NCBI RefSeq assembly: GCF_023715105.1
Contig: NZ_JAMBNO010000016.1
Coordinates: forward strand, 62,001-126,000
Direction: 5' to 3'
Length of the DNA: 64,000 bases
DNA from: Hydrogenophaga intermedia
GTDB lineage: Bacteria > Pseudomonadota > Gammaproteobacteria > Burkholderiales > Burkholderiaceae_C
The stretch's first letter is position 1, and the number at the start of each line of letters is the position of its first letter. The position numbers were made by a program, and so were the translations under genes. This document shows positions 36,304-52,043 of the stretch, in pieces. The notes under the pieces are model-generated. The model saw only the letters and a list, made by a program, of their open reading frames with translations. It did no database searches and was not told the origin of the DNA.

Positions 36304-37521
36304 ATGATTGAAGACACGCCGATGCGGCGACGACACCTGCTGCTGGCGACGGGCGCCTGGCTCGCAGCACCAGCACTGCAGGCGCAGGGCGCCAGGCCCG
36401 ACTGGCCTTCCATCGAGCGGGCCGCGCGCGGCCAGACGGTGTACTGGAACGCCTGGGGCGGCAGCGAGCAGACCAATGCCTACATCCAGTGGGTGGCGCA
36501 GTCGGTGCAATCGCGCCACGGCATCCGGCTGCAACACGTGAAGGTGGCTGACACCGCCGACGTGGTGCGCCGCGTGCGGGCCGAGAAAGCCGCAGGCCGC
36601 GGTGTGGGTGAAGGCACGGTCGACCTCGTGTGGATCAACGGCGAGAACTTCGCGGCCATGAAGCGCGAGGGCCTGCTGTTCGGTCCCTTTGCCGAGCAAC
36701 TGCCCAACTTCCAGTGGGTCGACGTCGAGGGCAAGCCCACGGTGCGCAACGACTTCTCCGTGCCCACCGACGGTTTCGAGTCACCCTGGGGCATGGCGCA
36801 GTTCACCTTGTTTGCGGACAGCCGCCGGCTGGCCACGCGTCCGCAAAGCATGCAGGCATTGCTGGCGCTGGCGCGCGCGCAGCCCGGGCGCATCACCTAT
36901 CCGCGCCTGCCCGACTTTCATGGCACCGCCTTCGTCAAACAGGCGCTGGTGGAGCTGGCCCCCGACACCGGCGCGCTGGCCCGTCCAGTGAGCGAGGCCG
37001 CACTGGCCGAGCAGGCCGCGCCGCTGTGGCGATTTCTCGACGCGCTGCGTCCGCACCTGTGGCGTGGCGGCCGCCAGTACCCGGCCAGCGGTGCCACGGT
37101 GCGCCAGATGATGGCCGATGGGGAATTGCTGCTGGCCATCACCTTCAACCCGAACGAGGCGGCCGGCGAGATCGCTGCGCGGCGCTTGCCCGACAGCGTG
37201 GTGAGCTGGCAGTTCTCACGCGGCACGATCGGCAACACGCACTTTGTCGCCATCCCATACAACGCGCGCGCCAGCGCGGCAGCGCAGGTGGTGGCCAACG
37301 TGCTGCTCTCGGCCGAGGCGCAGGCCCGCAAGGCCGACATCGCGCACTGGGGCGACCCGACCGTGCTGGACATCGAACGCCTGCCCGCCGATCAGCGGGC
37401 GCTGTTCACCGGGCGACAGCGGCCTGGCCAGGTCACCGAACCAGCGCCCACGCTGCCCGAGCCGCACGCCTCCTGGGTGGAGCCGATCGAGCGCGAGTGG
37501 CTGCGCCGCCACGGCGCGTGA
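36304..37521 (+). CDS. ynjB: YnjB-like ABC transporter substrate-binding protein
   Basis: 405 residues. It is a periplasmic binding protein of the YnjB family, recognised by VYWNAWGGSEQTNAYIQWVA near the N-terminus and the C-terminal ADIAHWGDPTVLDI block. The leader (MRRRHLLLATGAWLAAPALQ) has consecutive arginines and could use the Tat or Sec system. A GAGG box sets the start at 36304; an ATG at 36322 is an alternative. It is the first gene of a ynjB-ynjC-ynjD-ynjF run with overlaps. The ligand of YnjBCD is not established; thiamine- and polyamine-type transporters are its closest relatives by architecture. Confidence 0.87.
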   Translation: MIEDTPMRRRHLLLATGAWLAAPALQAQGARPDWPSIERAARGQTVYWNAWGGSEQTNAYIQWVAQSVQSRHGIRLQHVKVADTADVVRRVRAEKAAGRGVGEGTVDLVWINGENFAAMKREGLLFGPFAEQLPNFQWVDVEGKPTVRNDFSVPTDGFESPWGMAQFTLFADSRRLATRPQSMQALLALARAQPGRITYPRLPDFHGTAFVKQALVELAPDTGALARPVSEAALAEQAAPLWRFLDALRPHLWRGGRQYPASGATVRQMMADGELLLAITFNPNEAAGEIAARRLPDSVVSWQFSRGTIGNTHFVAIPYNARASAAAQVVANVLLSAEAQARKADIAHWGDPTVLDIERLPADQRALFTGRQRPGQVTEPAPTLPEPHASWVEPIEREWLRRHGA

Positions 37522-37528
37522 AAACGCG

Positions 37529-39151
37529 ATGAACCGCCTGCTGGCCCTGGCTCTGCTGGCGGTGGTCGGCCTGCCGGTTGCCGCAGCGGCGTTGGCCGCG
37601 CTGGCCAGCGCGGCGCAGCCCGCCGCCTGGGCAGACCTGCTGCTGCAGCCCGCGCTCGGCCGGGCAGTGGCCCACACGCTGTGGACCGGCCTGTGCGCCA
37701 CAGCGCTGTCGTGGTGGTTGGCCGCTGCGCTCATCTCGCGTGCCTTCGTGCAGTGCAGCCTGCAGGCCTTGCTGCGCCACGTGCCGGCCATGCTGGCCAT
37801 GCCGCACGCGGCGATGGCCATCGGCCTGGTGTTCCTGCTCTCGCCCAGCGGCTGGCTGATGCGCGCCGTCTCGCCCGGGCTCAGCGGCTTCGAACTTCCG
37901 CCGCCCTGGCCCACCACGCAGGACCCGTGGGGCCTGGGTCTGATCCTCGCACTGGTGCTCAAGGAGGTGCCGTTCTTCCTGTGGACCGCGGCCACGCAGT
38001 TGCAGCGCGCCGATGTGGCAGCGCGCTGGCAGGCCGAGCACGCGCTGGCGCAGACACTGGGCCACGGCCCGCGGCGGGCGTTCTGGCGCGTGGTCTGGCC
38101 ACAGCTCGCACCGCGCCTGCGCTGGCCCTTGCTCGCAGTGTTGGCCTATGGGCTCACGGTGGTCGACATGGCGCTGGTGATCGGCCCGGCCGCGCCGCCC
38201 ACGCTGGCGGTCCTGGCCTGGCAATGGCTGGGTGACGTAGAGCCCGCCACGCACGCACGTGGAGCCACCGCGGGGCTGCTGCTGCTCGCACTGGTGCTGC
38301 TGTGCGCCGCGCTGTGGGCCGTTGCCGCCGCTTTCGCGCAGCGCTGGCGCGCCACGCCCGGCACGGCGGGCAGACCCGAGCACGCCGTCTCGCGTCTGGC
38401 GCCTGGGCGACGCGCATTGGTCGGGGTGTACTCGGTGGTCATGGCCGCCTTGCTCGTGGGCAGCGTGAGCGGTGTGTGGGCCTTCCCGGCCTTCTGGCCG
38501 CAAAGCCTGAGCCTGGACGCGTGGGCCTCGGTCGCGCGCAGCAGCACCACGGTGGGGCACACGCTGTGGCTGGCGCTGGCGAGTTCGGCCCTGGCGCTGG
38601 CCTGGAGCGTGGCGTGGCTTGAATGCGCGCCGCGCCGCTGGGACAACGCCGCGCGCGCGCTTCTCTACCTGCCGATCCTGCTGCCCGCGGTGCTGTGGGT
38701 GGTGGGGCTGTACCGGGTGGGGCTGTGGCTGCGCTGGGAGGGCAGCGCCGCCGGGCTGCTGCTCGCGCACACGACGATGGTGCTGCCCTATGTGCTGATT
38801 GCGCTGAGCCCGGCCTACCTCGGCTTCGATCCGCGCTACGCGCAACTCAACGCCAGCCTGGGCCATGGGCGCTGGCGCCTGCTGTGGCAAGTGAAATGGC
38901 CGCTGCTCAAGCGCTCGATCGCGGCCAGCGCGGCGGTGGGATTCGCGGTCAGCGTGGCGCAGTACCTGCCCACGCTGTATCTGGGCGCGGGCCGCTTTGC
39001 CACCGTGACCACCGAGGCGGTGAACCTCGCGGCCGCCGGTCAACGCTCGCTCACCGCGGCCTACGCGGTGCTGCAGTTCACACTGCCGGTGCTGGGCTTT
39101 GCGCTGGCGGCCTGGGTGGGGCGGCCGCGCCGCTTCAGAATCGCGGCATGA
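37529..39151 (+). CDS. ynjC: YnjC-like ABC transporter permease (fused two-domain)
   Basis: 540 residues. The permease carries two BPD-type membrane domains in tandem, about 12 transmembrane helices in all. The EAA-like loops are RWQAEHALAQTLGHGPRRAF and QLNASLGHGRWRLLWQVKWP. Such fusions are typical of YnjC and the iron/thiamine permeases. The start at 37529 is 7 bp after ynjB; its stop overlaps ynjD by 4 bp (ATGA). Substrate unknown. Confidence 0.88.
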   Translation: MNRLLALALLAVVGLPVAAAALAALASAAQPAAWADLLLQPALGRAVAHTLWTGLCATALSWWLAAALISRAFVQCSLQALLRHVPAMLAMPHAAMAIGLVFLLSPSGWLMRAVSPGLSGFELPPPWPTTQDPWGLGLILALVLKEVPFFLWTAATQLQRADVAARWQAEHALAQTLGHGPRRAFWRVVWPQLAPRLRWPLLAVLAYGLTVVDMALVIGPAAPPTLAVLAWQWLGDVEPATHARGATAGLLLLALVLLCAALWAVAAAFAQRWRATPGTAGRPEHAVSRLAPGRRALVGVYSVVMAALLVGSVSGVWAFPAFWPQSLSLDAWASVARSSTTVGHTLWLALASSALALAWSVAWLECAPRRWDNAARALLYLPILLPAVLWVVGLYRVGLWLRWEGSAAGLLLAHTTMVLPYVLIALSPAYLGFDPRYAQLNASLGHGRWRLLWQVKWPLLKRSIAASAAVGFAVSVAQYLPTLYLGAGRFATVTTEAVNLAAAGQRSLTAAYAVLQFTLPVLGFALAAWVGRPRRFRIAA

Positions 39152-39780
39152 CGCTGACGGTTCACCTCGAACGCCTGGGCACGCCCGAGCGCTCTTTCCT
39201 GCAATCGCTGCACCTGTCGGTCAAGCCGGGGGAGATCCTCACGCTCATGGGGCCCAGCGGCTGCGGCAAGAGTTCGCTGCTGGCTGCCATTGCCGGCACC
39301 CTGGGCGAGGGCATTCGTTTCGACGGCTCGGTGCATCTCGATGGCGAGCCGATCGACCAGTTGCCCACGCACCGACGCGGCGTGGGCCTGCTGTTCCAGG
39401 ACGACTTGCTGTTCGCCCACATGAGCGTGGCCGAGAACCTGCTCTTCGCGTTGCCCGCGGGGCCACGGGCGCCGCGCGATGCCGCGGTCCAGGCGGCGCT
39501 GGCAGAAGCCGGCCTGCAGGGCCTGGGCGAGCGCGACCCGGCCACGCTCTCGGGCGGGCAGCGCGCGCGCGTGGCGCTCATGCGTGCGCTGCTGGCGCGC
39601 CCGCGCGCGCTGCTGCTGGACGAACCATTCTCGCGCCTGGATGCCGCGCTGCGCGAGCAGGTGCGCGGCTTCGTGTTCGAACACGCGCGCCAGCGCGCCA
39701 TTCCCGTGTTGCTGGTCACGCACGAACGCGACGACATCGCCGACCCGGCGCGTGTGATCGATCTGGGCCAGCATGCTTGA
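39148..39780 (+). CDS. ynjD: YnjD-like ABC transporter ATP-binding protein
   Basis: 210 residues. Walker A is LMGPSGCGKSSLLAAIAGTL, Q-loop GLLFQDDLLFAHMSVAENLL, signature LSGGQRARVALMRALLARPR, Walker B ALLLDEPFSRLD, and H-loop VLLVTHERDD. It completes the YnjBCD importer. The ynjF-like gene overlaps its 3' end by 8 bp. In E. coli a rhodanese gene (ynjE) sits between ynjD and ynjF; here it is missing. Confidence 0.9.
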   Translation: MTLTVHLERLGTPERSFLQSLHLSVKPGEILTLMGPSGCGKSSLLAAIAGTLGEGIRFDGSVHLDGEPIDQLPTHRRGVGLLFQDDLLFAHMSVAENLLFALPAGPRAPRDAAVQAALAEAGLQGLGERDPATLSGGQRARVALMRALLARPRALLLDEPFSRLDAALREQVRGFVFEHARQRAIPVLLVTHERDDIADPARVIDLGQHA

Positions 39781-40378
39781 CCGCGCCATCCAGCAAGGCC
39801 TGCGTTCGCTCTTCACGCGGGCCGCGCGGCAACTGGTGAGCCTGGGCATCGGCGCGGACGCGTTGAGCTGGACCGGCTTCGCGTTCGGCATCGCTGCCGC
39901 GGTTTGCATCGCCTTCTCGCAGTTCCACGCTGGCCTCGCGCTGCTGCTCGCCTCACGCCTGATGGACGGGCTCGACGGTGCGGTGGCGCGCGCCACCACA
40001 CCCACCGACCGCGGCGGCTTCCTCGACATCACGCTCGACTTTTTGTTCTACGCCGCCATCCCGCTCGGCTTCGCGTTCGCCGACCCCGCCGCCAACGCCC
40101 TGCCCGCGGCCGTGCTGCTGGCGAGCTTCATCGGCACCGGCAGCAGCTTCCTCGCTTTCGCGGCCCTGGCCGCGCAGCGCGGCCTGCAGGACTCGGCCCT
40201 GCCCGGCAAGAGCTTCTACTTCCTCGGCGGCCTGACCGAGGCCACCGAGACGATCACGGCCTTCGCGCTGATGTGCCTGTTCCCGGCGTGGTTCCCGGTG
40301 ATCGCGGGTATCTTTGCCGGCCTGTGTGCGATCACCACCGTCACGCGCCTGGTGTGGGGCTGGCAGCGTCTGCGCTGA
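39773..40378 (+). CDS. ynjF: YnjF-like CDP-alcohol phosphatidyltransferase
   Basis: 201 residues. It is an integral membrane enzyme with the CDP-alcohol phosphotransferase signature DGLDGAVARATTPTDRGGFL followed by the two catalytic aspartates (DITLD). About six transmembrane helices are visible. The family transfers a phospho-alcohol from CDP-linked donors; the acceptor for YnjF members is unknown. It overlaps ynjD by 8 bp and so belongs to the same transcript. Strong synteny with E. coli ynjBCDEF supports the name. Confidence 0.87.
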   Translation: MLDRAIQQGLRSLFTRAARQLVSLGIGADALSWTGFAFGIAAAVCIAFSQFHAGLALLLASRLMDGLDGAVARATTPTDRGGFLDITLDFLFYAAIPLGFAFADPAANALPAAVLLASFIGTGSSFLAFAALAAQRGLQDSALPGKSFYFLGGLTEATETITAFALMCLFPAWFPVIAGIFAGLCAITTVTRLVWGWQRLR

Positions 40379-40455
40379 ACGAGCCGGGCACACGCTGCGT
40401 TTGCAAGATTTCCAACGGCAAAGCGACCCATCCGCATCCCCACCGAAGCCCTGTC

Positions 40456-42627
40456 GTGACCCTTCGCAAAACCTTGCTGCTGCTGACCCTGGCCAGCGCG
40501 CTCGCGCTCTTCTGGGCCTTCGATCTCGGCCGCTTCCTGAGCCTGGAGCAACTCAAGGCCAGTCAGGCCGGGCTTGCAGCGCTCTACCAGCGCCACCCGT
40601 GGCAAGTGGCGGGCGCCTACTTCGGCATCTATGTGCTGGCCACGGCACTCTCGCTGCCGGGGGCGGTCCTGCTCACGCTGGCCGGTGGCGCGCTGTTCGG
40701 CCTGCTCTGGGGCACGGTGATCGTGTCCTTCGCGTCCAGTGTGGGGGCGACGCTGGCGTTCCTGGCCTCGCGCTTCCTGCTGCGCGATGTGGTGCGCGAG
40801 CGATTCGGCCGGCGCCTGGCCGAGATCGACCGCGGTCTCGAACGCGACGGCGCGTTCTACCTGTTCACGCTGCGGCTGATTCCGGTGGTGCCCTTCTTCC
40901 TCATCAACCTGCTGATGGGCCTCACGCGCATGAAGACCCTGACTTTCCACGCAGTGAGCCAGGTCGGCATGCTCGCGGGCACGCTGGTCTATGTGAACGC
41001 GGGCACGCAGCTGGCGCGGCTGGATTCGCTGCAGGGCATCCTGAGCCCGGCGCTGATCGGCTCGTTCGTGCTGCTCGGCCTGTTCCCCCTGATCGCGCGC
41101 CGGCTCGTCGCCGCATGGCAGCAGCGCAGGGCAACTGCGCGCTGGCGCGGCGTGCGCCCGCGCCACTTCGATCGCAACCTCATCGTCATCGGCGCTGGCG
41201 CGGGCGGGCTGGTCACGGCCTACATCGCGGCCGCCGTGAAGGCGCGCGTAACGCTGGTGGAAGCGCACAAGATGGGCGGCGACTGCCTCAATTACGGCTG
41301 CGTGCCGAGCAAGGCGCTGATCCGCAGCGCGAAGCTGGCGCACCAGATGCGCCACGGCGCGCGCTACGGGCTGCACGACACGGAACCGGTGCTGTCGTTT
41401 CGCGCGGTGATGCAACGCGTGCGCGACGTGATCCGCGACATCGAACCGCACGACAGCGTGGAACGCTACACCGGCCTCGGGGTGGAGGTGCTGCAGGGTC
41501 ACGCTCGTCTGGTCGATCCATGGACGGTGGAGATCGCGCTCAACGGTGGCGGCACACAGCGGCTCACGGCGCGCAGCATCGTACTGGCCACCGGTGCGCG
41601 GCCCTTCGTGCCACCGCTGCCCGGCATTGAGCAGGTGGACTGCGTCACCAGCGACACGCTCTGGGACCGCTTCGCCGCGCTCGACCACCCGCCCGCGCGC
41701 CTGGTGGTGCTGGGCGGCGGGCCGATCGGCTGCGAGCTCGCACAAGCCTTCGCGCGCCTGGGCTCGCAGGTCACGCTGGTGGAGATGGCGCCGCGTCTGC
41801 TGCTGCGCGAGGACGAGGACGTGAGCGCTTTCGCCCTGAAGACGCTGCAGGGCGACGGAGTACAGGTGCGCACCGGACAACGTGCGCTGCGCTGCGAGCG
41901 CAATGGCGAGGAAGATGGCGGCACCCAGTGGCTGGTGGTCGACAACGCCGGCCGCGAGGAACGCATTGCCTTCGACCACCTGATCTGCGCGGTGGGACGC
42001 GTCGCGCGGCTGGAGGGTTTCGGCCTGACCGAGCTGGGCATTCCCACCGGGCGCGTGATCGAGACCAACGAATACCTGCAGACGATCTACCCGCACATCT
42101 ACGTGGTGGGTGACGCAGCGGGACCGTACCAGCTCACCCACGTGGCAGCGCACCAAGCCTGGTACGCCGCGGTCAACGCGCTGTTCGGCGAATGGCGCCG
42201 CTTCAAGGTGGACTACCGCGTCATCCCCTGGACAACCTTCATCGACCCCGAGGTGGCGCGCGTGGGACTCAACGAGCAGGAAGCGCGCGAGCACGGGCTT
42301 GCGTTCGAGATCACGCGCTTCGACATCGGCGAGCTTGACCGCGCGATCGCCGACAGCGAGGCGAGCGGCTTCGTGAAGGTGCTCACCGAGCCGGGCAAGG
42401 ACCGCATCCTGGGCGTGACCATCGTGGGTGCGCACGCCGGTGAACTGCTGGCCGAGTACGTGCTGGCCATGAAGCACGGGCTGGGGCTCAACAAGGTGCT
42501 CGGCACGATCCACACCTACCCCACCCTGGCCGAAGCCAACAAATACGCGGCTGGCACGTGGAAACGCGCCCATGCGCCGCAGGGCCTGCTGCGCTGGGTG
42601 CAGCGCTACCACGACTGGAAGCGATGA
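40456..42627 (+). CDS. Fused TVP38/TMEM64 membrane protein and FAD-dependent pyridine-nucleotide-disulfide oxidoreductase
   Basis: 723 residues with two domains. Residues 1-225 form a TVP38/TMEM64 (SNARE-associated, DedA-related) membrane domain with about six helices and the conserved LTLAGGALFGLLWGTVIVSF and FYLFTLRLIPVVPFFLINLL. From 240 on is a full dihydrolipoamide/mercuric-reductase-type flavoenzyme. It has FAD motif NLIVIGAGAGGLVTAYIAAA, redox cysteines 277 and 282 (GGDCLNYGCVPSKAL), NAD(P) motif LVVLGGGPIGCELAQAFARL and C-terminal active-site His-Glu (HTYPTLAEANKYA). The start is the GTG at 40456. It overlaps the DUF3047 gene by 4 bp. Fusions like this occur in other proteobacteria; the substrate is unknown. 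A link with selenium or metal oxyanions is discussed in the findings and is inference. Confidence 0.88.
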   Translation: MTLRKTLLLLTLASALALFWAFDLGRFLSLEQLKASQAGLAALYQRHPWQVAGAYFGIYVLATALSLPGAVLLTLAGGALFGLLWGTVIVSFASSVGATLAFLASRFLLRDVVRERFGRRLAEIDRGLERDGAFYLFTLRLIPVVPFFLINLLMGLTRMKTLTFHAVSQVGMLAGTLVYVNAGTQLARLDSLQGILSPALIGSFVLLGLFPLIARRLVAAWQQRRATARWRGVRPRHFDRNLIVIGAGAGGLVTAYIAAAVKARVTLVEAHKMGGDCLNYGCVPSKALIRSAKLAHQMRHGARYGLHDTEPVLSFRAVMQRVRDVIRDIEPHDSVERYTGLGVEVLQGHARLVDPWTVEIALNGGGTQRLTARSIVLATGARPFVPPLPGIEQVDCVTSDTLWDRFAALDHPPARLVVLGGGPIGCELAQAFARLGSQVTLVEMAPRLLLREDEDVSAFALKTLQGDGVQVRTGQRALRCERNGEEDGGTQWLVVDNAGREERIAFDHLICAVGRVARLEGFGLTELGIPTGRVIETNEYLQTIYPHIYVVGDAAGPYQLTHVAAHQAWYAAVNALFGEWRRFKVDYRVIPWTTFIDPEVARVGLNEQEAREHGLAFEITRFDIGELDRAIADSEASGFVKVLTEPGKDRILGVTIVGAHAGELLAEYVLAMKHGLGLNKVLGTIHTYPTLAEANKYAAGTWKRAHAPQGLLRWVQRYHDWKR

Positions 42628-43397
42628 AGCACACGCGCAACCATGGCCCGCGCTGTGCGCTGCTCAGCGCCTTGCTCGCAGGCGGCTTGCAGGCACAGCC
42701 ACTGCCGGCCGAACTGCCGCCCCTGCTGGACACCGGGGGCGGACTTGCTGCGCCATGGCGTGTGCTGGCGTACCCCAAGGCGCACCGCCAGATCCCGCCC
42801 ACCCGGTTCGTACCGGGCACGCGCGACGGTATGCGCGGTGTGCAGGTGATCGCCGATCGCTCGTACGGCACGCTGGCCCTGTCGCTGCCGCCCACGCCGC
42901 CCACGCCGCCGATACCGCTGCAATGGCGCTGGCGGCTCGAGCGCCCGCTGGCGCTGGGCGCCGACGCGCCCGATCTGTTCCAGAAGGCGGGCGATGACGC
43001 CGCACTCAAGGTCTGCGCGATGTTCGATCATCCGATGGAGCGCGTGCCCTTCTTCGAGCGGCAGGTGCTGCGCCTGGCGCGCAACGCCGCTGGCGAGGCG
43101 TTGCCGGCCGCGACCGTCTGCTACGTGTGGGACCAACGCCATGCGCCGGACACCGAGGGCGACAACCCCTACAGCCGCCGCGTGCGTTTCGTGGTGCTGC
43201 GAGGCCGCGACGACGCCACCGGCCGATGGGTGAGCGAGCAGCGCGACCTGGCCGGTGATTTCCTGCGGCTGTTCGGCGATGAACATCCCGCCGGGCGGCC
43301 CGCGCCTGCGCTCACGCAGCTCGTGATCGGTGCCGACGCCGACAACACCGCCTCCAGCAGCGAGGGTTGGGTCGCCGACGTGCAGTGGGCGCGCTGA
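42624..43397 (+). CDS. Secreted DUF3047-type protein
   Basis: 257 residues. A signal peptide is visible (CALLSALLAGGLQAQP). The mature protein matches DUF3047: QWRWRLERPLALGADAPDLF, GDDAALKVCAMFD and the YVWDQRHAPD block are recognisable. A Pro-rich SLPPTPPTPPIPLQW insert is unusual. No enzymatic motif is known for the family. The ATG overlaps the stop of the TVP38-oxidoreductase gene, so it is translated from the same mRNA. Periplasmic location predicted; function unknown. Confidence 0.78.
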   Translation: MKHTRNHGPRCALLSALLAGGLQAQPLPAELPPLLDTGGGLAAPWRVLAYPKAHRQIPPTRFVPGTRDGMRGVQVIADRSYGTLALSLPPTPPTPPIPLQWRWRLERPLALGADAPDLFQKAGDDAALKVCAMFDHPMERVPFFERQVLRLARNAAGEALPAATVCYVWDQRHAPDTEGDNPYSRRVRFVVLRGRDDATGRWVSEQRDLAGDFLRLFGDEHPAGRPAPALTQLVIGADADNTASSSEGWVADVQWAR

Positions 43398-43420
43398 AGT
43401 CCGACGTACCATCGCCGCCC

Positions 43421-44623: not shown

Positions 44624-44624
44624 G

Positions 44625-44672
44625 ACGGGGAATGGGGGTGGCGACGTAGACTGCGCCATACCCCTATCCCGT
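44625..44672. repeat. Long imperfect inverted repeat in front of the DUF4399 gene
   Basis: Two 19-nt arms (44625-44643 and 44654-44672) pair over 14 Watson-Crick and 2 wobble positions with no bulge, around a 10-nt loop. It begins two bases after the upstream stop codon and ends 10 bases before the next ATG. There is no U-tract. It may be a leader structure, an operator or a factor-assisted terminator. Confidence 0.6.
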
Positions 44673-44682
44673 ATCGCTCGTC

Positions 44683-45498
44683 ATGCTTCACCCCGATCGT
44701 TCTGCCACCGCCCGCCTGCTGGTGGTGCTTGCCCTGCTGCTGCCGCTGCCGTTGCGGGCACAGGCCCCCGCCACCGAAACACGCGCCCTTCACCCCTGGC
44801 AGGTGCCCGGGCCGCGCCTGTCGGCCGAGGCCTATTTCACCAACCTCAAGGACGGTGATCGCATCGAGACGCCTTACCTGGTGAAGTTCGGCCTCTCGGG
44901 CGGCTGGGGCCTGGCGCCCATTGCCCAGGCCGGCCAGGGCAAGAGCGGCCACCACCACCTGCTGGTCAATCGCGACCTGCCACTCAACTTCAAGGAAGCA
45001 CTGCCGTTCAACGACCAGTACATCCACTTCGGCAAGGGGCAGATGGAGACCGTGCTCACGCTGCCGCCGGGCGAGTACACCCTGCGCATGCTGCTGGCCG
45101 ACCAGCAGCACCTGCCGCACTTCGTCTACAGCAAGCCGACGAAGATCACCGTCACGCGCAAGAACGACACGCCGCCCGCGTCGCTGCAGAAGAAGGGCAT
45201 TGAGATCGGCCTGGACGCGCCGTCGGCGCGCGCGCCGGTGCGTGTGCAGTTCCACGCCTCGATGCTCGACGTGGCGCAGATGGGGCAGAAGATCGCGAAC
45301 ACCGGGCACTTTCGCCTCACGGTGACCGGCGAAGGCAGCAATGCCGCGCCCGCGGTGATGGATTTCGTCGATGGTGAAACCGAGGTCTGGCTCGCGCCGC
45401 CCGCGGGCCGCTACACGCTCAAGCTCGACATGCTCGACAACGCCGACGGCCGCAAGCCGATGGCCGAACCGGTGACGGCGAAGCTCGAGGTGCGCTGA
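44683..45498 (+). CDS. Secreted DUF4399-type protein
   Basis: 271 residues. The signal peptide is LLVVLALLLPLPLRAQA. Residues ~48-155 form a typical DUF4399 domain with the conserved GKSGHHHLLVNRDL and IHFGKGQMETVLTLPPGEYT. A second, weaker copy may occupy ~160-271: IEIGLDAPSARAPVRVQF and WLAPPAGRYTLKLDM echo the first. Family function is unknown; the His-rich GHHHLL motif suggests metal binding. No ribosome-binding site is visible before ATG 44683, and a strong inverted repeat fills the leader. It converges on the HAD gene with a 2-bp gap. Confidence 0.8.
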   Translation: MLHPDRSATARLLVVLALLLPLPLRAQAPATETRALHPWQVPGPRLSAEAYFTNLKDGDRIETPYLVKFGLSGGWGLAPIAQAGQGKSGHHHLLVNRDLPLNFKEALPFNDQYIHFGKGQMETVLTLPPGEYTLRMLLADQQHLPHFVYSKPTKITVTRKNDTPPASLQKKGIEIGLDAPSARAPVRVQFHASMLDVAQMGQKIANTGHFRLTVTGEGSNAAPAVMDFVDGETEVWLAPPAGRYTLKLDMLDNADGRKPMAEPVTAKLEVR

Positions 45499-45500
45499 GC

Positions 45501-46205
45501 TCAGCAGCCGAGCTGATCGGCCAGGTGCACCAGGTCGCGCGCGTGCCAGGTGTTGGCCGCATCGGGCGACACGTCCTTCACGCGCCTGGCACCAAACTCC
45601 AGCGGCCGCTCGATATAGGCCGTGGCCAGACCGCAGGCGCGCGCGGCGTCCAGATCGTCCTGGTGCGCAGCCACCAGCATCACCTGCGCGGGTGAGACGT
45701 CGAACACCTCGGCCACGCCGAGGTAGGTGCGCGGGTCGGGCTTGTAGGCGCGGAACACCTCGGCCGAAAGCACGCAGTCCCAGGGCAGTCCGGCGCGCTT
45801 GGCCATGTTCGTGAGCAAGCCGATGTTGCCGTTGGACAGCGAGGCGATGGTGAAGCGCGTCTTGAGCCGCGTGAGCCCGGCCACGCTGTCGGGCCAGGCA
45901 TCGAGCCGGTGCCACACACGGTTCAGGTGTGCGCGCTCGGCCTCGGCCAGATGCGCCAGGCCGAAGCGCGGCAGGATGTCATCGAGGATGCCGCGGTGCA
46001 GTGCGTCGAGCTTGACGAAGCCGATCTCGCCGCTGCGCACGCGCTGCATCGCGGGCTGGTAACCAGCGCGCCATGCCAGCGCAAAGGCATCGGCATCGAC
46101 CTGCGGGTACAGCGACGACACCTCGCGCACGATGCTGCCGTGCCAGTCGACCACGGTGCCGAAGATGTCGAAGACGAGGATGGAGATCGGTGCGGTCAAG
46201 GTCAC
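45501..46205 (-). CDS. HAD-superfamily hydrolase, haloacid dehalogenase type II-like
   Basis: 234 residues. HAD motif I is ILVFDIFGTVVDWHG (nucleophile Asp), motif II TIASLSNGNIGLL, motif III Lys in RAYKPDPRTYLG, and motif IV VAAHQDDLDAARACG. The combination matches L-2-haloacid dehalogenases and related hydrolases. The start is the GTG at 46205, whose bases overlap the stop of senC (GTGA). It is therefore the third gene of a senB-senC-HAD operon. A part in selenosugar or phosphate removal during selenoneine synthesis is conceivable but unproven; a stand-alone dehalogenase or phosphatase is the alternative. Confidence 0.83.
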   Translation of the reverse strand: MTLTAPISILVFDIFGTVVDWHGSIVREVSSLYPQVDADAFALAWRAGYQPAMQRVRSGEIGFVKLDALHRGILDDILPRFGLAHLAEAERAHLNRVWHRLDAWPDSVAGLTRLKTRFTIASLSNGNIGLLTNMAKRAGLPWDCVLSAEVFRAYKPDPRTYLGVAEVFDVSPAQVMLVAAHQDDLDAARACGLATAYIERPLEFGARRVKDVSPDAANTWHARDLVHLADQLGC

Positions 46206-47275
46206 CCCACCGTCAATCGAATACCGCCAGCCATGGCCGGCACGATCTCGCCGATTTCGGCCGCTTGCGCAAAGCCGTGGCGCTGGAAGGTGGCCAGTAC
46301 CTCGGGCACCGCGTCGGCGCTGCACGAGACCAGCAGGCCGCCGCTGGTCTGCGGGTCGCTCAGCAAGGCCTGGTCGGGCGCCTGCAAGGCCGCGCCCATC
46401 TGCACCTCGTGGCCGTAGGCCGCCCAGTTACGGCCTGACGCGCCGGTCACCAGACCCGCGCCGGCGAGTTCGCGCACGCCAGGCAACAAGGGCACTTTCG
46501 CCCAATCGATGCGCACCGTGGTGCCGGCGCCGCGCGCCATCTCCATCGCGTGGCCCGCGAGACCGAAGCCGGTGATGTCGGTGAGCGCGTGCACGCCGGC
46601 GAGCTTTGCGAGCTCGGGCCCCGGCGTGTTGAGCTTGGTGGTGTTGGCGATCATCTGTGCGTAGCCCTCGGGCGCAAGCTGGTCTTTCTTGAGCGCGGCC
46701 GACAGCACGCCCACACCGAGCGGCTTGCCCAGCACCAGGCGGTCGCCCACCTTCGCATCGGCATTGCGCTTCACGTACTTCGGGTGCACCAGGCCCAGTG
46801 CCACCAGGCCGTAGATGGGTTCCACCGAATCGATGGTGTGACCACCGGCGATCGGGATGCCCGCGGCCTGGCACACGTCCTGCCCACCCTTGAGGATGCG
46901 GCCGATGGTGTCGGTGGACAGCACGTTGACCGGCATGCCCACCAGCGCCAGCGCCATGATGGGCGTGCCGCCCATGGCGTACACATCGCTGATGGCGTTG
47001 GTGGCCGCGATGCGCCCGAAGTCGTACGGGTCGTCGACGATGGGCATGAAGAAGTCGGTGGTGGCGATCAGCGCCTGCTCGTCATTGAGGCGATACACCG
47101 CCGCGTCGTCGGCGGTCTCGATGCCCACCAGCAGCTCCTTGGGCACCGGCATCTGCGTGGTGCCCTTGAGGATCTCGCTCAGCACGCCGGGCGCGATCTT
47201 GCAGCCGCAGCCGCCACCGTGGGAGAGGCTGGTCAATCGGGGTTGCGTGGCACTGGGTGGGGTGGGTGCGTTCAT
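46202..47275 (-). CDS. senC: Selenophosphate synthetase (SenC/SelD)
   Basis: 357 residues. It makes selenophosphate from selenide and ATP. The catalytic motif is SHGGGCGCKIAPG with Cys23 and Lys26 (equivalent to E. coli Cys17 and Lys20); no selenocysteine codon replaces Cys. ATP/metal motifs ALIATTDFFMPIVDDPYDFG, AATNAISDVYAMGGTPIMAL and VTGASGRN are present. GGAG nine bases before ATG 47275 favours this start; an ATG at 47302 would overlap senB. It lies between senB and a HAD gene. Because no selA, selB or tRNA-Sec is in the window and senA and senB flank it, supply of selenophosphate for selenoneine is its most likely local role. Confidence 0.93.
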   Translation of the reverse strand: MNAPTPPSATQPRLTSLSHGGGCGCKIAPGVLSEILKGTTQMPVPKELLVGIETADDAAVYRLNDEQALIATTDFFMPIVDDPYDFGRIAATNAISDVYAMGGTPIMALALVGMPVNVLSTDTIGRILKGGQDVCQAAGIPIAGGHTIDSVEPIYGLVALGLVHPKYVKRNADAKVGDRLVLGKPLGVGVLSAALKKDQLAPEGYAQMIANTTKLNTPGPELAKLAGVHALTDITGFGLAGHAMEMARGAGTTVRIDWAKVPLLPGVRELAGAGLVTGASGRNWAAYGHEVQMGAALQAPDQALLSDPQTSGGLLVSCSADAVPEVLATFQRHGFAQAAEIGEIVPAMAGGIRLTVG

Positions 47276-47291
47276 GGGGGTGGTCTCCGGC

Positions 47292-48311
47292 TCAGGCGCC
47301 ATGGGGCATGTCGACGCGGGCGCCGTGCAGCAGTTCGTTCAACAGATCGATCAGGGCGCGCTGCTCGGCCTCGGGGGCGAACAGCGGCGCGCGCTCTGCG
47401 CATTGTGCGGCCAGGCGCGCGAGGCTGCCATCGGCCTGCGCCATGTCCGCACGGCAGGCGCGCAGGTGCATCGCCAGCGCCTGCGCATCGCCGGGTGCAA
47501 AGTAGCCCGCGTAAGCCTCGCCAAGCATGCCCACATTGCCGTCGATGTGCGAGGCCAGCACCGGCACGCCGCAGCGCACCGCCTCCAGCACCGCGTGCGC
47601 GCCGCCTTCGATGCGACTGGTGTGCACCAGCACGTGCGCACGCCGCAGCCGGCGCTGCACCTCGGGGTGCGGCAGGCCACCGAGCCAGCGGTAGTGTGGG
47701 CAGGCCGCAGCGGTGGCGCTGGCGGCCTCGCCGAGCGCAGGGTCGAGCGCGGCACCGATGTGGTCGATTCGAATGCCCTCGTGGGGCGCGATCAGGCGCG
47801 CGGCCTCGAACAGGGTCTGCGGGGCCTTCTCGTCGCGCAGATGGCCCACCATCACCGCACGCAGGAAGCCGCTTGGCCGCGGCAAAGCCGCGCGGGCGGG
47901 TGTGGACTGGAACACCACACGGCAGCGTGCCCGCAAGTGCTCGGGCAGCGCCAGCGGACCACGCGCCTGCAGCACCACCAGGCGATGCGCCAGCCCGATC
48001 GAACGCTGCGCGTCGGCATCGATCGCGATATCGCGATAGAGGTCGGTGCCGGTGAGCACCACCACCAGCGGGGCATGTCCATCGGCCGCAGCCCAGGCCG
48101 CGATGGAGGCCGCCGAGCGACGAGCGTGCAGCGCGATCAAGGCCGCGGGGCGCTCGGTCATGGCGGCATCGGGCCACTGGCGCAAGAGGGCCACCCGATA
48201 ATGGCTCGCGAGCAGGCGCGACCAGCGCCGTGCGGTCTGCCAGTTGCCGTTGTTCGCGTCGGCCAGCGCCGGCGTGACGATGCACACCAGGGGTTTGCGG
48301 ATGGGGGCCAT
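47292..48311 (-). CDS. senB: Selenosugar synthase SenB-like glycosyltransferase
   Basis: 339 residues. It is a GT-B-fold glycosyltransferase with the family-typical N-terminus IVTPALADANNGNWQTARRW, VVVLTGTDLYRDIAIDADAQ, and the nucleotide-sugar motif SRIEGGAHAVLEAVRCGVPV. This matches the group characterised as SenB, which joins selenophosphate to UDP-GlcNAc-derived sugar to give a selenosugar in selenoneine synthesis. The ATG at 48311 overlaps the senA ATG on the other strand; ATG at 48323 is an alternative start. senC follows after 16 bp. Function is assigned from family resemblance plus the senA/senC context. Confidence 0.88.
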   Translation of the reverse strand: MAPIRKPLVCIVTPALADANNGNWQTARRWSRLLASHYRVALLRQWPDAAMTERPAALIALHARRSAASIAAWAAADGHAPLVVVLTGTDLYRDIAIDADAQRSIGLAHRLVVLQARGPLALPEHLRARCRVVFQSTPARAALPRPSGFLRAVMVGHLRDEKAPQTLFEAARLIAPHEGIRIDHIGAALDPALGEAASATAAACPHYRWLGGLPHPEVQRRLRRAHVLVHTSRIEGGAHAVLEAVRCGVPVLASHIDGNVGMLGEAYAGYFAPGDAQALAMHLRACRADMAQADGSLARLAAQCAERAPLFAPEAEQRALIDLLNELLHGARVDMPHGA

Positions 48312-49503
48312 GGAGCCAAGCATTGTGTCCGAGCCGTACGGCGAGGCCGCGCAGCGGGCCCGCTGCGCCGGGCGCACCGAACTGGCCGCGTTGCTGCGGG
48401 CCACCCGCGCGCGCACGCTGCGCCTGCTCGACGCCTGCGAGGCCGCGCTCGGCCCCACGTTGCGGGTGCCGCAAGCCGATGGGCTGAATCCGCTGCTGTG
48501 GGAGCTCGGACACATCGGCTGGTTCGCCGACCGTTGGGTCGCGCGCAACCCGCAGCGTGCTCGGGGCACGATGGCCGACCCGCTCGCCCCCCTTTCGCCC
48601 GCGCGCCAGGCCGCCCGCGGTGTGGACGCCGACGCGCTGTACGACAGCAGCGCAGTGCCGCACGAGGCGCGCTGGCACCTGCCCCTGCCCGACCTGGCCA
48701 CCACGCGCGCCGACCTGCACGCGCAACTGCACGACACCCTCGCGCTGCTCGCGCGCGCCGACGCCACCGAGGCCTCCGACGCGGGCCTGTATTTCTTCCG
48801 CCTCGCGCTGTTCCATGAGGACATGCACGCCGAGGCCTGGGTCTACATGGCGCAGGCATTGGGTATCGACGTCGGCGAGACCGCACCATCGCCCGCTGCG
48901 CCCGGCGAGCGGCCGCTGCACCTGCCCGCGGGCGAATGGGCGCAAGGCTGGCCCGGCCCGGGCTTTGCCTTCGACAATGAGTTGTGCGGGCAAACGGTGA
49001 AGCTCGGCGCCTTCGACATCGACGCGCACGCGGTGCACTGGGCGCGCTACCTGCCCGCCGTGCGCGCCGGTGCCGTTCCCTTGCCACGCCACCTGCGCCA
49101 CGAGGACGGCCAGTGGCAGCAACGCGTGCACGGCCAGTGGCGTGCGCTGGACCCCCTGGCCCCGGCCTGCCACCTGAGTTTTCACGACGCGCAAGCCTGG
49201 TGCGCCTGGGCCGGCCGGCGCCTGCCCACCGAGGCCGAGTGGGAGTACGCCGCACACCACGCCCGAGGCTTTGCCTGGGGCCACGTGTGGGAATGGACAG
49301 CCAGCACGTTCGCGCCCCTGCCTGGCTTCTCGCCCCACCCCTACCGCGACTATTCGCAGCCCTGGTTCGATGGCCGCCCGGTGCTCAAGGGTGCCAGCCA
49401 TGCCACCGCGCCGCACATGCGCCACCCGCGCTACCGCAACTACTTCACCGCCGAGCGCAGCGACATCTTTGCGGGCTTTCGCAGCGCGGGCCCGGGCATC
49501 TGA
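48310..49503 (+). CDS. senA: Selenoneine synthase SenA (EgtB-like nonheme iron enzyme)
   Basis: 397 residues. The N-terminal DinB-like domain carries the iron-ligand histidines: His68 in WELGHIGWFADRW and His169/His173 in LFHEDMHAEAWVYM. The C-terminal half is an FGE-sulfatase (SUMF1) domain with CHLSFHDAQAWCAWAGRRLP, TEAEWEYAA and the terminal FAGFRSAGPG. The same architecture is found in the ergothioneine enzyme EgtB; the adjacent senB and senC identify this as the SenA branch, which forms the C-Se bond between hercynine and a selenosugar. No EgtD (hercynine-forming methyltransferase) is in the window. ATG 48310 shares bases with the senB start; a GTG at 48325 is possible. phnC follows after 35 bp. 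Confidence 0.88.
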   Translation: MEPSIVSEPYGEAAQRARCAGRTELAALLRATRARTLRLLDACEAALGPTLRVPQADGLNPLLWELGHIGWFADRWVARNPQRARGTMADPLAPLSPARQAARGVDADALYDSSAVPHEARWHLPLPDLATTRADLHAQLHDTLALLARADATEASDAGLYFFRLALFHEDMHAEAWVYMAQALGIDVGETAPSPAAPGERPLHLPAGEWAQGWPGPGFAFDNELCGQTVKLGAFDIDAHAVHWARYLPAVRAGAVPLPRHLRHEDGQWQQRVHGQWRALDPLAPACHLSFHDAQAWCAWAGRRLPTEAEWEYAAHHARGFAWGHVWEWTASTFAPLPGFSPHPYRDYSQPWFDGRPVLKGASHATAPHMRHPRYRNYFTAERSDIFAGFRSAGPGI

Positions 49504-49538
49504 ACGCGGCCTGCGCGTTGCCCTTCTGCCGGGTTCTA

Positions 49539-50378
49539 ATGCGGCCCGTGAAGTTCGACATCGACCAACTCGGCATGCGCCACCGCAGCGCCCGCCCCGG
49601 GCAGCCCGCGGCGCTGCAGCGGCTGAGCCTGCGCATCGACAGCGGCGAACAGCTTGCGGTGATCGGCCCCTCGGGCGCGGGCAAGACCACGCTGCTGCAG
49701 TTGCTCAGCTGCGCGCTGCCTCCCACCACAGGCGCGTTCACCATCGACGGTGTGGCCCCATGGGCCCTGCCCCGGCGCGCGTTGCAGCGCCTGCGCGGGC
49801 GGCTGTTCCTGGCGCCGCAGGTGCCGCCGCTGCCACCGCGCCAGCGCGTGGTCACCTCGGTGCTGGCTGCGCGCCTGCCCGCCATGGGCACCTGGGCCAG
49901 CCTGCGCTCGTTGTTCTACCCCGACGACATTCCCGCCGCCTTCGCCGCGCTGGAGCGCTTCGACCTCGGCGAGAAGCTGTTCGAGCGCGTGGACCGGCTC
50001 TCGGGCGGCGAGCGTCAGCGCGTGGGCCTGGCGCGCGCGCTCCTCGCGCCCGCGAAGGCCTGGTTCGTCGACGAGCCGCTGTCGGCACTCGACCCGACGC
50101 GCGCGCAGCAGGCCATTGCCACGCTCACCGAGGGCGCGCGCGAGCGTGGTGTCACGCTGGTGGCCTCGCTGCACCAGGTCGACGTGGCGCTCGCGCACTT
50201 CCCGCGCATCGTCGGCCTGCGCGACGGGCAACTCGCCTTCGACCTGCCTGCCGCCGCGGTGACGCGGGAGCATCTGGCGCGCCTGTACGACCAGTTCGAG
50301 CACGAGCTGCGCGGCGAGGGCCTGGCCCCACCGCAGGAGCCCGCCACCCCGGTGCCGGTGGCCATGCAGTGCCGTTGA
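49539..50378 (+). CDS. phnC: Phosphonate-type ABC transporter ATP-binding protein
   Basis: 279 residues. Walker A is VIGPSGAGKTTLLQLLSCAL, signature RLSGGERQRVGLARALLAPA, Walker B AWFVDEPLSALDP, and H-loop TLVASLHQVDVALAHFPRIV. The latter two are PhnC-like. ATG 49539 (MRPVKFDID) is used; GTG 49548 is possible. It lies 35 bp after senA and 4 bp before the first permease gene, so a senA-phnC-phnE-phnE transcript is likely. No binding-protein gene (phnD) is seen on either side. Substrate therefore unknown: phosphonate, phosphite, or something connected to the sen genes. Confidence 0.87.
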   Translation: MRPVKFDIDQLGMRHRSARPGQPAALQRLSLRIDSGEQLAVIGPSGAGKTTLLQLLSCALPPTTGAFTIDGVAPWALPRRALQRLRGRLFLAPQVPPLPPRQRVVTSVLAARLPAMGTWASLRSLFYPDDIPAAFAALERFDLGEKLFERVDRLSGGERQRVGLARALLAPAKAWFVDEPLSALDPTRAQQAIATLTEGARERGVTLVASLHQVDVALAHFPRIVGLRDGQLAFDLPAAAVTREHLARLYDQFEHELRGEGLAPPQEPATPVPVAMQCR

Positions 50379-50382
50379 CGTG

Positions 50383-51219
50383 ATGAGCAGCGCAACACAC
50401 CTGCGAGCTCCCGACCGCGACCCGGCCTGGTTGTCGCGGCTGTTCTGGATCGGCTTCGCGTTGGTATTGCTGTGGCCACTGGGCGTGGCCACCCAGTTCC
50501 GGCCCTGGGTGCTGGTCGAGACGAAGAACCTGCAGGTGACCGGCCAGTTCCTGGGCAGTTTCTTCCCGCTCGCGCACGACGCCGAGTTCCTGCAGATGGT
50601 GGCGCGCGAAACGTGGCGCACCGTGGCGATGGCCACCGCTGGCGTCACGCTCGCGCTGCTGCTGGCGATCCCGCTCACGCTGGCCAGCACGCGCATGCTG
50701 TCGATCTCGGCACTCTCCGGTCGCATGGCCACACTGCCCGCCTTCGTGCGCCACGCTGTGCGCTGGCTGCTGATCGTGCTGCGCAGCATCCCCGAGCTGG
50801 TGTGGGCACTTGTGTTCGTGCGCGTGGTGGGCCTGGGCCCCACGGCTGGCGTGCTGGCCATCGCGCTCACCTACGCGGGCATGCTGGGCAAGGTGTACGG
50901 CGAGATCCTGGAAAGCGGCGAGCCGCACGCCACGCAGACCCTGCTGCGCAACGGCAGCGGCCGGCTGCAGGCCTTTCTGTACGCGCTGCTGCCGGCCAAC
51001 GCGGCCGAGCTCACCAGCTACACCGTCTACCGCTGGGAATGCGCAATCCGCTCCTCGGTGGTGCTGGGCTTCGTGGGTGCGGGTGGCCTGGGCCAGCAAC
51101 TCGACAACTCGATGAAGATGTTCAACGGCGGCGAGGTGGCCAGCATGCTGCTGGTGTTCATGGTGCTGGTGGCGCTGGCCGACCGCGCGAGCGCCTACCT
51201 GCGAAAGGCGCTGGGGTGA
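50383..51219 (+). CDS. phnE: Phosphonate-type ABC transporter permease, first
   Basis: 278 residues with about six transmembrane helices. The permease motifs WLLIVLRSIPELVWALVFVR and SVVLGFVGAGGLGQQLDNSM mark the PhnE subgroup. The EAA-like loop is ATQTLLRNGSGRLQAFLYAL. ATG 50383 is used in preference to a GTG one codon earlier. Its stop overlaps the ATG of the second permease (TGATG). With phnC and phnE2 it would form the membrane part of an importer. Confidence 0.88.
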   Translation: MSSATHLRAPDRDPAWLSRLFWIGFALVLLWPLGVATQFRPWVLVETKNLQVTGQFLGSFFPLAHDAEFLQMVARETWRTVAMATAGVTLALLLAIPLTLASTRMLSISALSGRMATLPAFVRHAVRWLLIVLRSIPELVWALVFVRVVGLGPTAGVLAIALTYAGMLGKVYGEILESGEPHATQTLLRNGSGRLQAFLYALLPANAAELTSYTVYRWECAIRSSVVLGFVGAGGLGQQLDNSMKMFNGGEVASMLLVFMVLVALADRASAYLRKALG

Positions 51220-52043
51220 TGAAGCCGGTCGCCGCCAACCTGCCCTACAAGTTGCCGCCGCGCCTGTTCGATGCGCGCTGCAAGGCCTGCTGGCTCACGC
51301 TGGGTGCGCTGCTGCTGGTGATGGCCAGCTTCTGGTCGCTCGACCTGCAGTGGCGCCAGTTCCTGTCGTGGGAAGCGGCGCGGAGCATGGGACGCTTTCT
51401 CGGTGAGTTCTTCCCACCCGACACCTCGCCCGAATTCCTGCAACGCGTGGCCGTGGGTGCGTGGGAGACGCTGGCGATGTCAGCCCTGGGCACGGCGCTC
51501 GCGGCACTGGCCGGGCTGGCGCTGGCCCTGCCCGCCAGCCGCCTGCACGAGGGCGACGCCGCCTGGGCCCGCATGCCCACGCGCTGGCTGCTCAACGCAT
51601 TGCGCAGCATCCCCGAACTGGTGTGGGCCGCGCTGCTGCTCATCAGTGCCGGGCTGGGGCCATTCGCCGGCACGTTGGCGCTGGGGCTGCACACCGCGGG
51701 CGTGCTGGGCCGCCTGTTCGCCGAGGCGATCGAGAACGCCCCGCGCGGCCCGGCCGATGCGCTGCGCCAGCAAGGTGTCGGCCACGGGCGCGTGTTCCTC
51801 TACGCGACGCTGCCGCAGGTGCTGCCGCAGTTGCTCAGCTACACGCTCTACCGCTGGGAAAACAACATCCGCGCCGCGGCCGTGCTGGGCGTGGTGGGCG
51901 CGGGCGGTCTGGGGCAGTTGCTGGCCTTCCACATGGGCCTGTTCCACATGGGCAAGACGGCCACCATCCTGGCGGCCATGCTGGTGCTGGTGGCGCTGGT
52001 GGACGGGGCCAGCCACGCGGCGCGGCGCGTGTTGACACGCTGA
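51219..52043 (+). CDS. phnE: Phosphonate-type ABC transporter permease, second
   Basis: 274 residues, clearly homologous to the preceding permease: WLLNALRSIPELVWAALLLI and VLGVVGAGGLGQLLAFHMGL match its motifs. The pair presumably forms a heterodimeric channel. The region between the first and second helices carries the same FPPDTSPEFLQRVAVGAWET block. It ends 33 bp before the convergent sugar-dehydrogenase gene, so the operon has no space here for a periplasmic binding protein. Confidence 0.88.
   Translation: MKPVAANLPYKLPPRLFDARCKACWLTLGALLLVMASFWSLDLQWRQFLSWEAARSMGRFLGEFFPPDTSPEFLQRVAVGAWETLAMSALGTALAALAGLALALPASRLHEGDAAWARMPTRWLLNALRSIPELVWAALLLISAGLGPFAGTLALGLHTAGVLGRLFAEAIENAPRGPADALRQQGVGHGRVFLYATLPQVLPQLLSYTLYRWENNIRAAAVLGVVGAGGLGQLLAFHMGLFHMGKTATILAAMLVLVALVDGASHAARRVLTR

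Follow-up and report, generated by a model that had tools for sequence, protein, structure and literature searches.

Selenoneine genes and a ynjBCD-reductase gene block, probably two separate systems, adjoin each other in Hydrogenophaga intermedia

A detailed inspection was performed of a 64,000-nucleotide stretch of Hydrogenophaga intermedia DNA (contig NZ_JAMBNO010000016.1 of assembly GCF_023715105.1; the whole stretch is referred to below as the window), whose interval 36304..52043 contains 15 intact genes. The interval probably comprises two separate systems: (i) a selenoneine unit with an adjoining PhnC-E-E transporter and (ii) an eight-gene operon composed of ynjBCD, ynjF, a gene for a VTT (TVP38/DedA)-reductase fusion, and genes for a DUF3047 protein, a flavoprotein and a DUF4399 protein. 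The second system is widespread in genomes without selenium genes, its reductase is common to arsenosugar clusters, and within the family of the host (designated f1; the host genome is G000) the two often form a joint island. An initial annotation had instead suggested that YnjBCD, YnjF and the VTT/reductase serve selenium uptake or reduction upstream of selenophosphate.

The eight genes of the second system, from ynjB (start at 36304) to the DUF4399 gene (end at 45498), follow one another on the + strand with gaps or overlaps of ≤77 bp. Only 2 bp beyond the last of them ends a − strand block of mutually overlapping genes (45501-48311) encoding a HAD hydrolase, SelD/SenC and SenB, after which senA, phnC, phnE1 and phnE2 are located on the + strand (48310-52043). 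This spacing suggests that the ynj block and the selD-senB block are two separate, convergent transcription units, which by their layout would not be co-transcribed; this argues against a selenium-dedicated role of the former. The gene content given in the initial annotation was confirmed: every gene that it named, senA and senB included, is present and intact, the order agrees with the one claimed, and the starts of ynjB and selD are 11.0 kb apart. A promoter scan revealed no sigma-70-like site, and terminator-like sites numbered 7, against 5.1 (standard deviation 2.0) in shuffled sequence. An Rfam scan of positions 33000-54000 gave nothing above the gathering score; the sole match at E≤1, to a microRNA family (26 vs 83 bits), is attributed to chance.

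Judged from its sequence, the selenoneine gene set of the window is complete, and SenA, SenB and SenC/SelD are encoded by adjacent genes whose products all score above curated cut-offs. The selenophosphate synthetase SelD/SenC (46202..47302, − strand) matches NF002098 with 543 bits (cut-off 299), TIGR00476 with 435 bits and the solved structure 3u0o with E=1.4e-101; it contains the motif GGGCGCK, which we take to be the catalytic Cys/Lys region. The selenosugar synthase SenB (47292..48311, − strand; TIGR04348, 425 bits vs 300) and the selenoneine synthase SenA (48310..49503, + strand; NF041186, 445 bits vs 420) both match solved structures of their own kind in the PDB. Drawn as the longest frames opening with ATG, senA and senB lie on opposite strands with start codons that overlap (48305-48312). 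As the profile matches begin at residue 18 of SenA and residue 9 of SenB, both proteins probably start further inside these frames. At the position of the SenB motif published as EGGAHV (in a passage of PMC10891094), the window protein reads EGGAHA.

By analogy with the pathway of Variovorax paradoxus (PMC9814287), whose intact senA, senB and selD/senC the window shares, and which is also described in a passage of PMC10702425, SelD/SenC would make selenophosphate, SenB would make a selenosugar, and SenA would join selenium to hercynine. Hercynine can be supplied by EgtD, for which two genes were found elsewhere in G000 (356.6 and 303.7 bits; cut-off 290.9). Two differences from the V. paradoxus cluster were recorded, namely that the sen genes of the window abut the ynj operon and that the importer's binding protein, whose gene adjoins senA in mapped relatives, is encoded on a separate contig. 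The HAD type II hydrolase gene (45501..46205, − strand; TIGR01428, 166.9 bits vs 125.4) also adjoins selD in genome G019, where its product is 82% identical. A second SelD of G000, fused to a flavoprotein (FAD-SelD; FAD, flavin adenine dinucleotide), is encoded on contig C71.

The three genes directly following senA were left undiscussed by the initial annotation. They encode a PhnC-like ATP-binding cassette (ABC) ATPase (49539..50378, + strand; TIGR02315, 180.3 bits), a putative selenium-oxyanion importer component, and two PhnE-like permeases, PhnE1 (50383..51219, + strand; TIGR01097, 191.5 bits) and PhnE2 (51219..52043, + strand; TIGR01097, 259.7 bits). Identification as a PhnCDE phosphonate importer was rejected: PhnC falls below the phosphonate cut-off of 266.1 bits and PhnE1 below that of 216.7 bits, so that only PhnE2 passes. 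The products are 63-75% (PhnC), 71-85% (PhnE1) and 69-84% (PhnE2) identical to those of sets adjoining sen genes in nine relatives. These nine relatives carry TIGR04553, named in NCBIfam as a "putative selenate" ABC binding protein, an assignment that is itself a prediction; the representative from G019 scores 357 bits (cut-off 250). The order senA-TIGR04553-phnC was observed in eight of the nine mapped sen loci with TIGR04553, senA not being seen in the ninth (G487).

The association between this binding protein and the selenium genes was also evident in a draw of 130 f1 genomes, in which most genera have a single representative and for which, as for the phylum-wide draw described below, the co-occurrence statistics are uncorrected for kinship. 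TIGR04553 scored above its cut-off in 59 of the 130 genomes and lay ≤10 kb from selD in 41 of these; it was found together with SenB in 39 genomes (20.9 expected, p=1.5e-11), in 31 of them at a distance of ≤10 kb. The window itself contains no TIGR04553 gene (senA ends at 49503 and phnC starts at 49539) and thereby differs from the putative selenate importers of relatives, in which the binding-protein gene lies beside the PhnC/PhnE-like genes. G000 has its own copy on contig C66 (28285-29061; 351 bits, 81.5% identical to the G019 protein); in the 7.5 kb around it no PhnE match and only one distant ABC ATPase (31%) were detected. PhnC-E-E would supply the ATPase and both permeases to a PhnCDE-type importer whose substrate is most likely a selenium oxyanion, and it probably uses the C66 binding protein, which would act in trans. 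It fits better as a selenium importer than YnjBCD does, and this better candidate, adjoining senA, is a further point against a selenium-dedicated YnjBCD. Transporter subunits near selD have been proposed for selenium transport before, according to passages in two papers: in Haloarcula, a subunit resembling those of phosphate transporters (PMC2276186), and, close to an orphan selD, an ABC ATPase (PMC5029168). In G492, an EgtB gene (TIGR03440, 532 bits; L150:15246-16487) follows the TIGR04553/PhnC-E-E set, and a similar one is found in G449, which makes ergothioneine and selenoneine genes neighbours there.

The second system begins with a substrate-binding protein of the YnjB family, PRK11622 (36304..37521, + strand; NF008633, 521.5 bits vs 203), a 540-aa YnjC-type permease (37529..39151, + strand; BPD_transp_1, 25.3, just below the cut-off of 26.4), a YnjD-type ABC ATPase (39148..39780, + strand; ABC_tran, 112 bits) and the CDP-alcohol phosphatidyltransferase YnjF (39773..40378, + strand; PF01066, 30 bits vs 22). 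A search of solved structures with the YnjB sequence returned nothing. The structure model of YnjB (mean predicted local distance difference test score 86) has a generic substrate-binding fold; the 50 solved structures that match it best give template-modelling scores of 0.5-0.6 and identities of 12-18%. Its ligand could not be read from the fold: 2-aminoethylphosphonate, polyamine, ferric, hexose-phosphate, metal-citrate and other types all match and no class stands out. YnjBCD would be a putative importer of a solute of unassigned class.

The next gene encodes the VTT/reductase, a 723-aa fusion of a VTT domain with an FAD disulphide reductase (40456..42627, + strand, GTG start; PF09335, PF07992 and PF02852). 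In an alignment of 16 sequences, its redox motif GGDCLNYGC (Cys277/Cys282) and a HxYPTxxE motif are kept. MerA has C-terminal vicinal cysteines. The mercuric reductase assignment was rejected, with 353 bits against the TIGR02053 cut-off of 454 and the last Cys at residue 511 of 723; these features suggest a disulphide reductase and not MerA. At the membrane, electrons from NAD(P)H would reach the Cys277-Cys282 pair by way of FAD and serve to reduce either a disulphide or a substrate bound to a thiol. Fusions of COG0398 DedA proteins to a pyridine nucleotide-disulphide oxidoreductase have already been described, in a passage of PMC10127716, as the commonest COG0398 fusion; in domain content, on which the comparison rests, the window protein resembles them and no difference was found. 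In the titles and abstract openings of the open-licence papers among the matches listed, neither YnjBCD nor the DedA-reductase fusion is linked to selenoneine or arsenosugar genes.

The block is completed by a DUF3047 protein (42624..43397, + strand; PF11249, 145 bits), a stand-alone FAD oxidoreductase akin to TIGR03169 (43421..44623, + strand) and a DUF4399 protein (44683..45498, + strand; PF14347, in two stretches). The initial annotation had described the oxidoreductase as SelD-associated. Its score of 306.4 bits narrowly misses the cut-off of 310 for TIGR03169, a family linked to SelD, and in a tree of 57 flavoproteins it falls within a stand-alone set of 26 (local support 97), while 15 of 16 SelD-fused flavoproteins belong to another set of 17 rows (support 100), which makes that label misleading. 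Both kinds are present in G312, G450 and L253.

The distribution of the second system was examined in 397 genomes of Pseudomonadota, many of which, as in the f1 draw, are fragmented, so that distances spanning contig ends are missed. With YnjB counted above its cut-off, selD at E≤1e-40 and VTT/reductase at E≤1e-150, these genes were found in 64, 151 and 67 genomes, respectively. YnjB and VTT/reductase occur together in 27 genomes (10.8 expected, p=9e-8), whereas neither co-occurs significantly with selD (YnjB, 28 genomes vs 24.3 expected, p=0.33; VTT/reductase, 28 vs 25.5, p=0.49). The module therefore behaves as a unit that is not tied to selenium use. Members of the YnjC and YnjD clusters are present in all 64 YnjB loci, and ynjF lies near ynjBCD in 43 of them, in 8 families. 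Against a dedication to selenium, 36 of the 64 YnjB genomes and 39 of the 67 VTT/reductase genomes have no selD match, and ynjBCD-VTT/reductase blocks without selD were found in families f14, f21, f25, f28, f39 and f63 (with ynjF in all except f21).

Distances in the same draw concentrate the linkage in two families. YnjB lies ≤25 kb from selD in 10 of the 28 genomes with both, six of f19 and four of f1 (for two of the 28, G334 and G336, no selD coordinates are listed, and their 20-kb YnjB stretches show no selD). VTT/reductase does so in 5 of its 28, all of f1 (no coordinates are listed for G121). The f19 spacing is 7.6-9.2 kb in all six genomes having both genes, which suggests one inherited arrangement. 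In view of the missing phylum-wide co-occurrence, little about function can be concluded from nearness to selD in two lineages. The recurrent co-location on which the initial annotation relied thus holds in f1, where the genome-wide check that it proposed shows enrichment near selD, and does not extend to the phylum, and the data lend no support to the selenium role assigned to YnjBCD and YnjF.

In related bacteria the second module is found more often with arsenosugar genes, or with neither set, than with selenium genes. Of 61 phylum-draw genomes outside f1, 34 had their reductase neighbourhoods mapped and the other 27 were covered by coordinate comparison only. Among the 35 reductase loci mapped, arsS is present in 6 and selD or sen in none, a further argument against the selenium-dedicated reading; the 19 fetched via the reductase account for all six arsS loci, and the 16 fetched via YnjB contain arsS in none, an arsenosugar-type glycosyltransferase in 3 and selD or sen in none. 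The 80 best-matching named reductase loci (28 of them not longer than 20 kb) contain arsenosugar-type genes in 24 cases (arsS in 15), ynjB in 9, selD in 3 and sen in 2. In the window, no match to arsS, arsM or TIGR04282/TIGR04283-type genes was found, so that it is not itself an arsenosugar cluster (ArsS, TIGR04167); its resemblance to such clusters lies in the VTT/reductase, DUF3047, DUF547 or flavoprotein neighbours seen in several loci.

Within f1, reductase loci unlinked to selD often contain DUF3047, the flavoprotein or DUF547, and some also hold arsS, TIGR04282/TIGR04283 glycosyltransferases and arsM. ArsS was detected in 15 of the 130 f1 genomes, 14 of which have VTT/reductase (4.2 expected, p=2e-8), at ≤10 kb in 10 of the 14; it also co-occurs with SenB (12 vs 5.3, p=2e-4). 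Three loci (G437, G449 and G497; L140-L144) unite sen, TIGR04553-PhnC-E-E, flavoprotein-DUF3047-VTT/reductase and arsS within 17-22 kb. The host itself carries a second island (L102, C71:1-19990), with FAD-SelD, VTT/reductase, a TIGR04282-type glycosyltransferase, MTAP, arsS and DUF547, together with a distant PhnC/PhnE/binding-protein set. MNIO bufferin-type maturases recur near the module (L136:16546-17418; loci G401, G449, G459 and G497); YHS, sigma-factor, TctC, DUF2063 and fatty-acid-hydroxylase genes were also seen among its neighbours.

Several observations weigh against a clean separation of the two systems. In the f1 draw (VTT/reductase in 36 genomes, YnjB in 22, SenB in 46, selD in 119), selD lies ≤25 kb from VTT/reductase in 14 of 36 genomes and from YnjB in 7 of 22, where chance would give ~1.4% per genome, a calculation likewise uncorrected for kinship. 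VTT/reductase and YnjB both co-occur with FAD-SelD fusions (VTT/reductase, 14 vs 4.4, p=1.4e-7; YnjB, 12 vs 2.7, p=3e-8) and with SenB (VTT/reductase, 24 vs 12.7, p=9e-6; YnjB, weakly, 13 vs 7.8, p=0.015). The second VTT/reductase of G000 on C71 lies 236 bp from the FAD-SelD gene. Outside f1, in locus L241 from a Rhodobacteraceae metagenome-assembled genome (UBA1957), FAD-SelD, VTT/reductase, ynjF and ynjBCD directly follow one another. In the reductase tree, the gene appears beside selD on at least three separate branches. As to the importer, the selenate role of TIGR04553 is only predicted, and the partnership of the host's binding protein with the window permeases is one that we infer. Taken together, the f1 neighbourhoods and co-occurrence, C71 and L241 indicate that a real functional link is possible in some lineages. 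The co-occurrence of VTT/reductase with selD itself in f1 is weak (36 vs 33.0, p=0.03), 119 of the 130 genomes having selD.

The tree (FastTree, 148 rows, local support only) places the window VTT/reductase in a set of 25 rows with local support 97. Fourteen rows have selD or sen at ≤10 kb, and 12 of them belong to this set; at ≤25 kb, where coordinates allow, 17 of its 25 rows are selD-linked, compared with 2 of the 123 others. These two are the C71 copy of G000, which groups with arsenosugar-linked copies, and L241. The selD-adjacent reductases of G498 and G422 (stop codons) and of G394 (partial gene) are outside the tree, an omission that slightly weakens the selenium side. The VTT/reductase of L194, a record titled as a Klebsiella pneumoniae metagenome-assembled genome, groups among the f1 rows, and the title may be misassigned.

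The composite island is real in f1, and there are two ways to read it that are both compatible with two separate systems. One, which we consider possible, is that the systems have no functional link and that a single ancestral site near ftsY gathered accessory gene sets that were then inherited within one clade. Such a site is suggested by nine loci: ftsY adjoins the ynj/VTT block in the window, G506, G435, G489, G450, G312, G413 and L185, and lies ~10 kb from VTT/reductase in G497. That most linked reductases form one clade, and that spacing and orientation vary among the f1 island maps, also agrees with this view. It is less easily reconciled with the separate branches represented by C71 and L241, and with the finding that, across f1 genera, VTT/reductase tends to occur in genomes that also have SenB or FAD-SelD fusions; that the reductase, judged from this one tree, seems to have arrived beside selD at least three times counts for some functional link.

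The other, which we put forward tentatively and hold to be rather doubtful, is a shared metalloid-reduction module, in which the membrane-tethered reductase, together with the flavoprotein, DUF3047 and DUF547 proteins, would keep thiol-bound selenium and arsenic reduced, feeding selenide to SelD and arsenite to the arsenosugar methyltransferase. This proposal agrees with the neighbours of VTT/reductase, which include arsenosugar genes in several families and SelD/sen in f1, with the composite islands of G437, G449 and G497, and with the gene content of C71 (FAD-SelD, VTT/reductase, glycosyltransferase, MTAP and arsS). It is opposed by the 66 of 148 reductase rows with no selD/sen, arsenosugar or ynjBC neighbour at ≤10 kb (some of the contigs being short) and by the lack of arsS in the 16 YnjB-fetched loci outside f1; moreover, the activity is putative, and general thiol homeostasis would look alike. 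A selenium role of VTT/reductase, as the initial annotation had proposed, may thus apply in f1, but arsenosugar loci share the protein.

The reading of the whole YnjBCD-reductase operon as a dedicated selenium uptake system is probably wrong, and dedication of YnjBCD, YnjF and VTT/reductase to steps upstream of selenophosphate is very unlikely in view of the selD-free genomes and loci, in spite of the local linkage in f1 and f19, locus L241 and a link between a DedA protein and selenite resistance that appears as a reference-list entry (Ledgham 2005).

The parallel with Escherichia coli, cited in the initial annotation, is correct yet weaker than it sounds. The K-12 order is ydjXYZ, ynjABCDE, ynjF (reverse), nudG, ynjH (reverse), gdhA, ynjI, topB and selD (the last three reverse); ynjB, ynjC, ynjD, ynjF and DedA-family (VTT) proteins are thus shared with the window, and selD lies within ~15 kb. 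However, the E. coli DedA proteins lack the fused reductase, the sulfurtransferase gene ynjE is present, and five genes on mixed strands (nudG, ynjH, gdhA, ynjI and topB) separate ynjF from selD. Among the 80 best named loci, the closest come from Limnohabitans and other Comamonadaceae; in L182 (Limnohabitans), ynjBCDF, VTT/reductase and DUF3047 adjoin FAD-SelD and senB.

If the two systems of the window are indeed separate, attention shifts from YnjBCD to PhnC-E-E/TIGR04553 as the system by which selenoneine producers may import selenium. A more far-reaching idea, which we regard as unlikely, is that f1 (Comamonadaceae-like by its closest named loci) possesses one metalloid island serving both elements, in which the membrane-anchored DedA-type reductase, the flavoprotein and DUF3047/DUF547 would provide selenoneine synthesis with selenium, and arsenosugar synthesis with arsenic, in reduced form. 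Such an island, if real, would explain the composite sen-arsenosugar loci and why the reductase has repeatedly come to adjoin SelD, and a shared role in selenium and arsenic reduction would give a function to the common, uncharacterised DedA-reductase fusions.

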